DNA of 10,282 nucleotides. Source: a candidate division WWE3 bacterium. Lineage in GTDB: Bacteria > Patescibacteriota > 4484-211 > JAGQKX01. The position numbers and the translations under genes are program-made. The DNA lies in assembly GCA_020429905.1 (NCBI GenBank), contig JAGQKX010000016.1, positions 1 to 10,282 on the forward strand. The letters are read 5' to 3'. The notes beneath the pieces were generated by a model. That model saw only the letters and a program-made list of their open reading frames with translations. It made no database searches and had not been told where the DNA came from. Positions 91 to 6,971 of the stretch are shown here, piece by piece (position 1 is the first letter of the stretch; each line of letters starts with the position of its first letter).

Positions 91-165
91 TGGAGCCGAC
101 AGCCGGACTTGAACCGGCAACCTACGGTTTACGATACCGTTGCTCTACCGTTGAGCTATGTCGGC
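91..165 (-). tRNA. tRNA-Thr with anticodon CGT
   Basis: The minus strand folds into a complete cloverleaf of 75 nucleotides including CCA. The acceptor stem GCCGACA pairs with TGTCGGC over 7 bp. The D-stem is GCTC/GAGC, and the D-loop contains GG. The anticodon stem ACGGT/ACCGT encloses the loop ATCGTAA, which gives anticodon CGT (plus-strand bases 131-133) and so threonine (codon ACG). The T-stem GCCGG/CCGGC encloses TTCAAGT. The discriminator base is T, usual for bacterial tRNA-Thr, and CCA is encoded at 91-93. I see no clear terminator in bases 1-90. The gene is divergent from the ATPase gene at 270. Confidence 0.97.
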
Positions 166-3879: not shown

Positions 3880-4965
3880 ATGTTTGAAATATTTAATACG
3901 AAAGTAGAAAACGTATCTGAAACATTTGACCTTAATACTCCAGCCGGGAGGCATGAATATTTTCATCAAAAGGCGGCAAAAGAAATAGAAGAACTGAAAG
4001 AATATCTTGAGCATAATTCCTTTGTGAGTTTTTGGCTGGCTAAAAAAGGCGCCGGGAAAGGCACATACAGTAAGATGTTCTCGGAGATAATTGGGGAGGA
4101 ACGATTAGCACATATTTCAGTTGGTGATGTGGTAAGACACGTCCACGCCAGTGTTGAGGATGAACAGGCGAAAAAAGCTTTGTATACCTATCTTGACGAA
4201 AATTACCGTGGAACACTTTCACTCGATGAAGCGTTTGATGCACTGATCAATCGGGAAACCAAAACGCTACTCCCAACAGAATTTATTTTGACATTGGTTA
4301 AAAGAGAAATTGAACAACTTGATGGACAAGGCATCATGATGGATGGGTTTCCTCGAGGAATGGACCAAATTTCATACTCATTGTATTTTAGAGAAATTAT
4401 GAATTTACGCCATGATCCTGATTTTTTTGTTCTTATTGATGTTCCGGATAGTGTCTTAGACGCCCGAGTAAAAGCCCGTGTCGTTTGCCCTAAATGTCAG
4501 TTGTCTCGAAGTATAAAATTCTTATTAACCAAAGACATTATTTACGATCCGGAGACGGATACATATCATCTAATTTGTGATAATCCTGCGTGTGAAGGAT
4601 GTGGTGAGGAACGGCTTGTCGCCAAAGAAGGAGACGATCTCGGCATTGAAGGTATCAGAGATAGACTCGAAGCAGATGATGAGTTGATTAAATACGCGTT
4701 GCGGTTGAGAGGCATTCCAAAGCTTACACTTCGGAATACTGTTCCTGTTGATCAAGCGCAATCGTATGTTGATGAGTATGAAATAACTCCTGAATTTGTT
4801 TTCGACCACAATGCTAATAATGAGGTTGAGATATCGACAAAGCCCTGGGTTGTAAAAGACAGCGATGGTAGCGACGCGTACAGCCTGATGGCGGCACCGG
4901 TTGTACTTTCATTTATAAAACAAATGCATGCGCAATTAATCGGAGACGATACCATGGGGGTGTAG
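3880..4965 (+). CDS. Adenylate-kinase-like nucleoside monophosphate kinase, extended form
   Basis: The core resembles adenylate kinase, which moves a phosphate between ATP and a nucleoside monophosphate. Seen: P-loop AKKGAGKGT at 54-62, where the usual first glycine is alanine; NMP-site DGFPRG at 155-160; and a LID-like segment with five cysteines, CPKC at 203-206, C233, and CEGC at 238-241, able to hold zinc. The motif RDRLEADDELI at 260-270 matches the RxxxDD region after the LID. At 361 residues it is about 150 longer than bacterial Adk (about 214). The extra length is a helical N-terminal extension of about 48 residues, a long NMP/LID region and a C-terminal tail beyond about 305. Because of these changes a substrate other than AMP is possible. 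The last codons overlap the tRNA-like element at 4956-5022. The start is 3 bases after the flavoprotein stop, so the two are probably co-transcribed. Confidence 0.8.
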   Translation: MFEIFNTKVENVSETFDLNTPAGRHEYFHQKAAKEIEELKEYLEHNSFVSFWLAKKGAGKGTYSKMFSEIIGEERLAHISVGDVVRHVHASVEDEQAKKALYTYLDENYRGTLSLDEAFDALINRETKTLLPTEFILTLVKREIEQLDGQGIMMDGFPRGMDQISYSLYFREIMNLRHDPDFFVLIDVPDSVLDARVKARVVCPKCQLSRSIKFLLTKDIIYDPETDTYHLICDNPACEGCGEERLVAKEGDDLGIEGIRDRLEADDELIKYALRLRGIPKLTLRNTVPVDQAQSYVDEYEITPEFVFDHNANNEVEISTKPWVVKDSDGSDAYSLMAAPVVLSFIKQMHAQLIGDDTMGV

Positions 4966-5022
4966 TTTAATTTCAAAATGGCCTTCGGGCAGATGAAGGT
5001 GTAAATCCTTCCACCTCCACCA
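4956..5022 (+). ncRNA. tRNA-like element lacking an anticodon arm
   Basis: GGGGGTG (4956-4962) pairs with CACCTCC (5012-5018) over 7 bp with one G-T wobble. It is followed by discriminator A (5019) and CCA (5020-5022). TA at 4963-4964 fills tRNA positions 8 and 9. A D-arm-like hairpin follows: GTTT, a 7-base loop, AAAT (4965-4979). The T-arm is GAAGG (4995-4999), loop TGTAAAT, CCTTC (5007-5011). Where a 17-base anticodon arm belongs there is only GCC-TTCG-GGC (4981-4990), so the total is 67 rather than about 75 bases. The D-loop GG and the T-loop TTC are also changed (TT and TGT). The 5' arm lies within the last codons and stop of the kinase-like gene, and the 3' end is 4 bases before the next ATG. 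It could be a decayed tRNA, a tRNA mimic in the operon mRNA, or a processed small RNA. Confidence 0.5.
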
Positions 5023-5026
5023 CCCC

Positions 5027-6034
5027 ATGACTGAACAGGACTATCTAAAAAAATTCATTTTTGATAAAGAGCCATACATGCTGACAGATCATGATCGGAA
5101 GACCATTGAATTTGAAGGCATGGAGTCATTTATTTTTAGAAAATTAACCACGGCCAAATACAAGGCTTCAGCTCTTCCTGCTGGACTCGAAGATAAAGTT
5201 ACCAAAATTATCAGGCGATGTGTAGCTGAGGAGAAACCAATTCATCTTACAGTTCCGTTTGGGGGATATAAAAAATGGCAATTTGCTTCGTATCCATATC
5301 CTGATTGGGCTGAAGTCTTCAATATCAGCCATTTAAGAAATTTTCTTAAACCTATTGCCGCAGCGTATAAGCACGGGGTAATTCTCCAATACTTTTCAGA
5401 TGAAATTTTTATCTCTCGCATGAATAACTACCCTGAAGAAGATGTGTTAGCGTACAACGAGTCTTTTCAAAAATTAATTCATTGGTACCAATCGTATTTT
5501 CCTCCAAACCTAATGCTGAGATTTTCAAAAATACGAGACGAGATTTCTCAAGAAAAATTGATGAAACGATTTGATCAAACAATAGAGACATTACGTGAAA
5601 AATGGGAATCAGTACCACCAGAAGATAGAGCTTTACGACTTGCTAAATCAGCCAGAAATTATAAAGGAGATCTGGAATCGCTAACCCCAAAAGAAAAAGA
5701 GAAAATATTGTGGGAATCGACGCTGGTTCATGATGCGTTTATCTTTGGGGATTGGGATAAAGATGTGACGTGGGCTTTTGGTGATTTGATGATACCTCTT
5801 GGCTTTCGGTATACCGGGAGTTGGGGAGTGCACCTAAAATCATCACCGTCGTCGACGGTTCAGTTTTGGATTGGAACTGGTGCTCTAAAACACAGAAACG
5901 ATGGTTCATTAGTCTCTACGATATTGACGTATGATCAGTTCACTAAGGCACAATCGAATATAACTATGGTACCGATCGAGTTGTTGCCAGCCTCATTAAA
6001 AAATGTGTCACAGATAGCAGTGGTCGGTAAATAA
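5027..6034 (+). CDS. Protein of uncertain family, possibly Dit1/PvcA isocyanide-synthase-like
   Basis: This is a soluble protein of 335 residues with no signal peptide and no membrane segment. I do not firmly recognise it. One stretch follows the pattern of the Dit1/PvcA family, which makes isonitriles from aromatic amino acids. It has EKPIHLTVPF at 69-78, then PDWAEV at 92-97, a helix, YKHGVILQYFSDEIF at 114-128, and EEDVLAYNESFQKLI at 137-151. In PvcA the matching elements are a PIxFxLPAF strand, PDMAE, a YPPGAxVTxxSDGRVF strand and a helix with xAYxxxL. The C-terminal part (about 255-305) could be the following beta-rich half. The similarity is recalled by eye, not computed. The gene starts 4 bases after the tRNA-like element, with no Shine-Dalgarno, and its stop is 2 bases before the cupin ATG, so it probably shares an mRNA with its neighbours. 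Confidence 0.6.
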   Translation: MTEQDYLKKFIFDKEPYMLTDHDRKTIEFEGMESFIFRKLTTAKYKASALPAGLEDKVTKIIRRCVAEEKPIHLTVPFGGYKKWQFASYPYPDWAEVFNISHLRNFLKPIAAAYKHGVILQYFSDEIFISRMNNYPEEDVLAYNESFQKLIHWYQSYFPPNLMLRFSKIRDEISQEKLMKRFDQTIETLREKWESVPPEDRALRLAKSARNYKGDLESLTPKEKEKILWESTLVHDAFIFGDWDKDVTWAFGDLMIPLGFRYTGSWGVHLKSSPSSTVQFWIGTGALKHRNDGSLVSTILTYDQFTKAQSNITMVPIELLPASLKNVSQIAVVGK

Positions 6035-6036
6035 AT

Positions 6037-6411
6037 ATGGACATACACAAAATTGTGAACGAATTGAAAACTGAATATCCAGAAAAAAATATTATCATCA
6101 ACGAACCGGGAGAAATTATTTGTGAGATTGAGCCAACTTCTGAACATACAGAATTCAGCATTGCCGTCGCGGTTGTAGATTCAATTGTCCCTCACTATCA
6201 TAATTATTCAGTGGAAGAATATGAAATTATCAAAGGAACACTTGAACTGCAGTTAGACGGTCACACCGTTATGTTACGAGAATCACAAAGCATCCGGATC
6301 GATCCCGAGGTTGTTCATTCAGCAAAAGGATCAGAAACTTGGTTTCGGGTGATTTCTAAACCCGGATGGAATACTGAAGATCATATTTTGATCTCAGATG
6401 AAACAGGATGA
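6037..6411 (+). CDS. Small single-domain cupin protein
   Basis: This 124-residue protein carries cupin motif 1, HYHNYSVEEYEIIKG at 53-67, with H53, H55 and E60 spaced as in the HxH(x4)E(x6)G form. A second motif is centred on H94 in DPEVVHSAKG. These residues would bind one metal ion inside a beta-barrel. Small cupins like this include sugar-phosphate isomerases, dioxygenases and metabolite-binding proteins, and the sequence does not tell which. The start ATG lies 2 bases after the upstream stop, and the stop TGA overlaps the ATG of the next gene in ATGA (6408-6411), which implies translational coupling with the hydrolase. Confidence 0.82.
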   Translation: MDIHKIVNELKTEYPEKNIIINEPGEIICEIEPTSEHTEFSIAVAVVDSIVPHYHNYSVEEYEIIKGTLELQLDGHTVMLRESQSIRIDPEVVHSAKGSETWFRVISKPGWNTEDHILISDETG

Positions 6412-6971
6412 GTAAATCGGCGATTATTTTTCATGGAACGCTTGGCTCTCCGGACGGAAACTGGTTTCCGTGGTTGGGAGAACAACTTGAATCCATTGGG
6501 TACGAAGTATATATACCCAAATTCCCTACCCCTGAAAACCAGACGATTACCAATTGGGTTCAAGTTGTTTCAACCGTACCGATAGCTATTGATGATCAAA
6601 CGGTTTTGGTCGGACACAGTTCTGGGTGTTTGGCAATTTGTGGATTGCTTCAGGAAACTAGAGCCAAGGTTAAAGCAGCCATGCTTGCAGCGCCGTTTTT
6701 GGGACCAATCGGGAATACGGAATATGATTCGTATAATCATGCGTTTAACGAGTATGAATATGACTGGAAGTTGATTAGTTCACTTGCCTCTTTTTATGTG
6801 TTCCGCGGAAGCGATGATCCATACGTACCAGCAGAAAATGGGGAAAAACTGGCGATGCTACTCAAGGCTGAAGAGATTATCATTCCCGGAGGTAAGCATC
6901 TTAATAATGAACCAGATATTCAATATACAAAATTTCCTTTACTGTATGAAAAAATCGAAACCTTAGATTAG
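6408..6971 (+). CDS. RBBP9/YdeN-type serine hydrolase (alpha/beta hydrolase fold)
   Basis: This is a compact cytosolic hydrolase of 187 residues, the typical length of the RBBP9/YdeN family. The nucleophile elbow is GHSSG at 69-73 with S71. The acid is D136 or D137 in GSDDPYVP, and the catalytic histidine is H164 in GGKHLNNE. The N-terminus AIIFHGTLGSPDGNWFPWL matches the family pattern in which HG, a short loop and a W-rich segment form the oxyanion region. The substrate is unknown; some relatives are esterases or amidases. The start overlaps the cupin stop by four bases, so the two proteins are probably made in fixed proportion. It is the last gene of the 270-6971 run; a separate promoter follows at 6981. 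Confidence 0.85.
   Translation: MSKSAIIFHGTLGSPDGNWFPWLGEQLESIGYEVYIPKFPTPENQTITNWVQVVSTVPIAIDDQTVLVGHSSGCLAICGLLQETRAKVKAAMLAAPFLGPIGNTEYDSYNHAFNEYEYDWKLISSLASFYVFRGSDDPYVPAENGEKLAMLLKAEEIIIPGGKHLNNEPDIQYTKFPLLYEKIETLD

Follow-up and report, generated by a model that had tools for sequence, protein, structure and literature searches.

A tRNA-like element without an anticodon arm, a candidate alanine donor encoded next to a PvcA/DIT1-like gene in a candidate division WWE3 bacterium

Between an adenylate-kinase-like gene and a gene for a PvcA/DIT1-like protein, the 10,282-nucleotide stretch of DNA analyzed here (the window) contains a 67-nt tRNA-like element with an alanine-type acceptor and no anticodon arm. 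Judged from its sequence, this element is probably a tRNA-like RNA gene that would be charged with alanine by the ordinary alanyl-tRNA synthetase (AlaRS), excluded from translation and used as amino-acid donor by the PvcA-like enzyme. A tRNA-like gene was accepted just upstream of the enzyme gene, on the same strand, in 21 of 37 loci. On balance we also favor the broader view that such RNA-enzyme pairs form a class in Patescibacteria. In each, a tRNA without its decoding parts, having UNCG/GNRA hairpins or closed loops for the anticodon arm and in several cases no elbow, would be encoded beside an isonitrile-synthase-like enzyme and supply it with a single amino acid, which differs by lineage according to the identity marks; one genome could run two such pairs (Ala and Cys).

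The element, its partner gene and their surroundings

The following features of the window are referred to below.

91..165, minus strand: tRNA-Thr(CGT), called by ARAGORN
3880..4965, plus strand: adenylate-kinase-like gene, with its stop inside the element
4956..5022, plus strand: tRNA-like element, 67 nt, Ala-type acceptor, anticodon arm absent (direct reading, fold and family comparison)
4956..4962, plus strand: 5' strand of the acceptor stem, GGGGGTG, with G2-C71, G3:U70 and G4-C69 (direct reading)
4965..4979, plus strand: D-arm GTTT-AATTTCA-AAAT, loop AATTTCA, in which TT replaces G18G19 (direct reading)
4981..4990, plus strand: C(UUCG)G-capped 3-bp hairpin GCC-TTCG-GGC in the place of the anticodon arm (reading and RNAfold)
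4995..5011, plus strand: T-arm GAAGG-TGTAAAT-CCTTC (reading and RNAfold); the T-stem covaries among relatives
5012..5022, plus strand: 3' strand of the acceptor stem, discriminator A73 (5019) and encoded CCA (5020-5022) (direct reading)
5027..6034, plus strand: partner gene for a PvcA/DIT1-like protein of 335 aa, a predicted enzyme (PF05141, AF2 and fold search)
6037..6411, plus strand: cupin gene, separated by 2 bases from the PvcA-like gene and possibly in one operon with it
6408..6971, plus strand: serine hydrolase gene (PF06821), sharing 4 bases with the cupin gene and possibly in the same operon

The acceptor strands (4956-4962, GGGGGTG, and 5012-5018, CACCTCC) form 7/7 pairs with a single G:U at 3:70. 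Together with 5/5 T-stem pairs and the encoded CCA, these are canonical tRNA features, and T8 and A9 are found at 4963-4964; a canonical anticodon arm is absent, its place being taken by the 3-bp UUCG hairpin. T-loop positions 55-56 read GT, with T54 and A58 retained. The GG of the D-loop and the GGTTC of the T-arm are kept in 20/20 other tRNA genes of this genome, and the element, which is single-copy there, is changed in both. The stop codon of the kinase-like reading frame (4963-4965) lies inside the element, whose end is separated by 4 nt from the ATG at 5027. An earlier note on this DNA had described a tRNA shape in which the hairpin GCC-TTCG-GGC stands for the anticodon arm, with GG changed to TT in the D-loop and TC to GT in the T-loop, overlapping the kinase-like stop and ending 4 nt before the next ATG, and our reading of 4956..5022 agrees on all these points.

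The combination of A73, G2-C71, G3:U70 and G4-C69 is the acceptor set of bacterial tRNA-Ala listed in an excerpt of PMC9976931. According to the same excerpt, the bacterial alanine determinants comprise the acceptor and G20, with no contribution of the anticodon, and in minihelices U73 alone is sufficient for Cys and G-1:C73 for His. The listed determinant G20 is missing from the element, whose D-loop has C in that position. Of the 20 further tRNA genes found in the genome, three have G3:U70, all of them tRNA-Ala; an AlaRS gene is present. A search of 379 genomes of the phylum with an Ala-type 5'-half pattern returned only the window's own genome (1/379) and no further Ala-type case.

The element was not called by ARAGORN or by Rfam (E up to 5), where no leader family matched over it either. 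The genome gave 20 RF00005 matches at E up to 10, none of them at the element, and the tmRNA model RF00023 matched it neither at E up to 5 nor among the ten RF00023 matches of the genome. RNAfold gave a structure of -20.1 kcal/mol with the acceptor, hairpin and T-arm formed and the D-stem missing. This folding energy is unexceptional (z -1.25; 26/200 shuffles fold equally well) and was set aside as evidence, not being significant for the window element alone. Support for the element therefore comes from comparison: in dinucleotide-shuffled upstream regions of 35 loci of the enzyme family, such elements appeared in 0/700 shuffles.

The protein encoded at 5027-6034 scores 31.0 bits against PF05141 (DIT1_PvcA), for which the curated cut-off is 26.4; in seven relatives scanned none reached the cut-off, six matching weakly and the protein of locus L064 not at all. 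Its AF2 model has a pLDDT of 93.5. A fold search with this protein placed PvcA and PIsnA, and thus the isonitrile synthase fold, at the top, followed by TyrRS and CDPS with Z 7.7-9.2, near the level of a common arrangement. The segments K..PD..E..SD are common to the window protein and PvcA/PIsnA.

On the upstream side, the adenylate-kinase-like protein (361 aa) is cysteine-rich near residues 200-250 and falls far under the NCBIfam adenylate kinase cut-offs. Upstream genes were scanned at 11 loci, and an adenylate-kinase-like gene adjoining the element was not seen at any of these except the window. Five are divergent TrmB-family regulators, L025 has an ABC transporter and L026 a HAD hydrolase, and the upstream genes of L023, L064 and L054 gave no family at the thresholds used. 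Dependence of the element on the kinase gene was therefore rejected, as the upstream gene differs or diverges in other loci. The earlier note had tied the element to the kinase mRNA, which does not hold for L008 and L009, where the gene on the upstream side runs in the opposite direction, leaving the element by itself in front of the enzyme gene. No Pfam family recurred among the downstream neighbours scanned. A tmRNA match at L010:6695-7156 lies about 1.7 kb 3' of the PvcA-like gene. The TrmB-family regulators, divergent from the RNA/PvcA-like pair at five loci, may control the pair:

L008, 2898-3845, minus strand: TrmB-family regulator
L009, 2936-3883, minus strand: TrmB-family regulator
L010, 2942-3808, minus strand: TrmB-family regulator
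L011, 2829-3704, minus strand: TrmB-family regulator
L062, 461-1336, minus strand: TrmB-family regulator

Recurrence, types and conservation of the elements

The enzyme family is sparse, with matches, some of them weak, in 12/379 genomes of the phylum, 9/383 of one class, 2/45 and 7/85; a scan of genome contigs gave 24 loci. The locus set has 37 distinct members whose upstream DNA could be read, an initial 35 and two added later (L113 and L114). Not counted are L013/L116, in which the upstream part is truncated, L006 and L070-L073, whose matches are weak or incomplete, and same-contig repeats. Start codons were chosen among in-frame ATGs. The 200 nt 5' of the ATG were scanned automatically for 7/7 acceptor pairs, 5/5 T-stem pairs and a central hairpin, with a GC filter, and 20/35 loci were positive; control windows of the same loci were positive in 10/1935 cases, five of which are ordinary tRNA genes (ARAGORN). 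The accepted total of 21/37 is obtained from these 20 by removing L024 and L017 and adding L065, L113 and L114. The L024 element was dropped as chance-like, without CCA and without a D-arm, and the L017 element as odd and common to L016. The latter (L017:394-456 and within L016:3046-3248, both Kerfeldbacteria) is a short element of the form TTCTCCC...GGGAGAA/G with inner hairpins, and a tRNA-Ile(TAT) precedes it. The L017 copy has TCCA at its end, and 58 nt separate it from the PvcA-like gene that follows.

The full CCA is encoded in 12/21 elements and incomplete in 9/21. Across the 18 accepted elements of the 35-locus scan the CCA position lies -1 to 14 nt from the chosen ATG, and it overlaps the ATG in seven (L020, L021, L025, L026, L027, L068 and L069); in L113 and L114 the gap is 28 nt. 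These two loci, whose Gly-like elements are close to each other, came from a class search around the genome of L008 (85 genomes, seven with the enzyme), in which no new Ala-like element was found. In viral contigs, no enzyme relative was confirmed. As 16/37 loci lack an accepted element, the enzyme fold can exist without one. The PvcA-like relatives of Rhizobium leguminosarum (L024) and of an alphaproteobacterial MAG (L031) are without an accepted upstream element. Four homologs (P0007, P0008, P0027 and P0035) start with MK..LPPP and a fifth, P0015, has a longer extension; from their sequences, these N-terminal extensions could be translated elements, a hint only, and in a check on them the acceptor motif was encodable in 182/1513 control stretches.

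The accepted elements fall into the types below. Their amino-acid labels are predictions made with the list in the PMC9976931 excerpt or, for Met and Arg, from the anticodon.

Ala-like with a tetraloop: window (UUCG), L008 (GAAA), L009 (GCGA)
Cys-like (U73, GCA in the loop): L064, L020, L021, L022, L025, L026, L027, L065, L068, L069
U73 with a GGAA cap: L010, L023
Gly-like: L113 and L114 (U73, G1-C72, C2-G71, G3-C70, UCC loop, without U33); L062 (U73 and UCC, but G2)
His-like: L060 (G-1, C73, GUG in the loop)
Met-like: L054 (CAU loop, A73, changed D- and T-loops)
Arg-like: L003, an ordinary-looking tRNA-Arg(TCT)

All five caps that replace the anticodon loop, at the same place in the window, L008, L009, L010 and L023, are UNCG or GNRA loops. 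The L113 and L114 acceptor carries the Gly marks listed in the excerpt of PMC9976931, plus C35 C36. Position 33 is C in 9/10 Cys-like elements (L025 has U33), where its pairing with G38 could give a closed GCAA tetraloop; except for L025, their loops read CCGCAAG or TCGCAAG. An ordinary tRNA-Cys was found in 8/11 genomes with Cys-like or U73-capped elements, with the loop CTGCAAA and U33 in 8/8, and BLAST found no further tRNA-Cys in G311, G744 and G748. The elbow change is not universal, as the Cys-like set mostly retains GG and TTC, and both L003 and L025 resemble ordinary tRNAs. The L010, L054 and L064 elements score as tRNAs in Rfam; for those of L008, L009, L060, L062 and L023 there was no tRNA-family match at E up to 0.5.

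Pairing was counted over 19 elements (excluding L113 and L114) and is complete, with 133/133 cells in the acceptor and 95/95 in the T-stem, a count that is partly circular because perfect pairing was a condition for finding most of them. Less so is the variety of pair types, with compensatory changes at 6/7 acceptor and 4/5 T-stem positions; partner shuffles reached the observed pairing in 0/500 trials. The three Ala-like elements on their own have compensation at one acceptor and three T-stem positions, and they prove little alone, since 168/500 shuffles match their acceptor pairing and 25/500 their T-stem pairing.

The enzyme tree (33 rows, leaving out L065, L030, L113 and L114) has several weak branches and long ones for L062, L024, L028 and L029. 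Eight of the 15 element-free relatives form one clade with support 100/99 (L012, L014, L015, L018, L019, L053, L055 and L057), and the rest are scattered. A ten-row group (100/100) contains most Cys-like cases, L023 and the element-free L031, with L064 outside it. The three Ala-like cases cluster with L010 at 94/91, just short of the threshold for firm support.

The window's genome (G000; 812 kb, 77% complete) has a second RNA-enzyme pair, L064, whose PvcA-like paralog (G000:C82:5224-6222) is 31% identical. The element of this pair (L064:1421-1494) is Cys-like, has C33, lies 6 nt 5' of the paralog and is called tRNA-Cys by ARAGORN. The genome also has three ordinary tRNA-Ala and one ordinary tRNA-Cys.

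Proposed role and alternative readings

In the scheme that we propose, the element and the enzyme gene would share a transcript, from which tRNA end-processing would release the element; such excision by tRNA-processing enzymes is plausible. AlaRS would load it using the acceptor stem alone, and without an anticodon and elbow it would be inactive in translation by ribosomes. The enzyme would then bind the acceptor end and convert the alanyl group to a small metabolite, possibly through isonitrile-type chemistry on the alanyl group or through peptide-type coupling. In other lineages the same scheme would operate with Cys, Gly, His or Met. These sequences would be explained most simply by a dedicated aminoacyl donor that does not decode. 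The AlaRS identity set, the adjoining enzyme family and the Cys-, Gly- and His-like parallels speak more for an RNA that is charged but does not decode than for an mRNA-borne mimic that affects translation. The earlier note was right on the tRNA shape and on non-decay, for which it had looked to compensatory changes in relatives, now seen in both stems, and it had missed these three observations.

The main alternative, an element that stays in the mRNA leader as a cis-regulatory tRNA mimic, where AlaRS or the PvcA-like enzyme binds it and translation or stability follows the charging state or the enzyme level, seems unlikely to us. Its fixed place would suit a regulator, as it is found 5' of the gene and on the same strand in all 21 accepted cases, with the narrow spacing given above for 18 elements and the seven overlaps with the ATG. 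In a regulator, however, CCA and identity sets for several amino acids would be superfluous, and the D-loop change resembles that reported for non-proteinogenic tRNA-Gly (PMC4052509, in excerpt). With only 4 nt separating the element from the gene, a terminator would not fit in between, and no Rfam leader family (E up to 5) matches the window element, although undescribed leaders are possible.

We give a low probability to a tRNA shape kept only as a processing signal, on which RNase P and a 3' processing nuclease would act to release a near-leaderless enzyme mRNA. A cut after the discriminator would indeed let the mRNA start 2 nt before the ATG in the seven loci with overlap, but the identity sets, the CCA encoded in 12/21 elements and the loss of the decoding part in several lineages would go unexplained, and the 28-nt gap of L113 and L114 does not fit.

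Hardly any weight remains for a decayed, functionless tRNA gene that neighbours the enzyme gene by chance: the unremarkable folding energy of the window element and its absence from the ARAGORN and Rfam calls would agree with decay, but the acceptor and T-stems stay paired with compensatory change over the 19 elements, even with the partly circular count, and the association with one enzyme family recurs. Equally far-fetched is a detached tRNA domain of tmRNA, an origin rejected on the RF00023 searches of the element and the genomes, since the sub-cut-off tmRNA match of the L008 element (34.4 vs 47 bits) is paralleled by ordinary tRNA-Ala genes of G000 (37.5 and 35.3 bits), over-cut-off tmRNA matches lie elsewhere in G000 and in the genomes of L008 and L009 (3/3 searched), the window element is not among the tmRNA matches, and its D-arm is tRNA-like (UAGUUUAAU).

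If the donor reading is true, tRNAs that gave up decoding have become private amino-acid carriers of one enzyme, and the PvcA/Dit1 superfamily joins the users of aminoacyl-tRNA, in keeping with its likeness to class I synthetases. Genomes regarded as metabolically poor would have small-molecule pathways, and the elements would be compact natural acceptors for studies of anticodon-free synthetase recognition. It would also explain sequences that tRNA annotation overlooks (window) or labels as plain tRNA-Cys (L064).

Comparison with known systems

Non-translating tRNAs and enzymes that use aminoacyl-tRNA are already known, and the RNA-enzyme couple as such appears to be undescribed within the searched literature. 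That search covered a subset of PMC papers, and among the matches listed no link of a PvcA/Dit1-like enzyme to a tRNA or tRNA-like gene was found. Word searches found neither PvcA nor isonitrile in a 2026 review of aminoacyl-tRNA-dependent enzymes (PMC12945691), and no Pvc or Dit1 in a 2010 survey of synthetase-like enzymes (PMC2922099).

A close likeness is found in Staphylococcus aureus. Its non-proteinogenic tRNA-Gly species are otherwise complete tRNAs with the anticodon arm kept, and this system uses Gly and serves cell-wall transferases of another fold. In an excerpt of PMC4052509, three of the five tRNA-Gly are called non-proteinogenic and have G18G19 replaced by UU or CU, as in the window element (UU); they are thought to serve cell-wall synthesis, with a proposed role as FemXAB donors, while other isoacceptors translate, a non-ribosomal supply of amino acid similar to the one proposed here. 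Unlike these tRNA-Gly, the window element has no anticodon arm and adjoins its presumed enzyme.

The alanine-type acceptor and the lack of an anticodon are shared with tmRNA. The element differs in being 67 nt long without a tag frame, and the tmRNA matches of the genome, of about 400 nt, lie elsewhere.

LanB-like proteins use ordinary tRNAs, and CDPSs take the ordinary aminoacyl-tRNAs of the cell. The former belong to a different family and, as in our proposal, use aminoacyl-tRNA non-ribosomally in small-molecule pathways (PMC12945691, in part). The latter are Rossmann-type proteins related to class I synthetases (PMC7566563, PMC2922099, both in excerpt), and in a 5-angstrom crystal their contacts with Phe-tRNA are limited to the acceptor end (PMC7566563). 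CDPS ranks under PvcA in the fold search, and the window protein is nearer to PvcA in both sequence and fold.

PvcA and PIsnA (PF05141) resemble the window protein by family match, top fold match and the common K..PD..E..SD segments. Known PvcA/IsnA-type enzymes condense Tyr or Trp with ribulose-5-phosphate, no tRNA being named in the excerpt of PMC7949033 that describes this reaction, whereas the window protein would take its amino acid from a tRNA-like partner.
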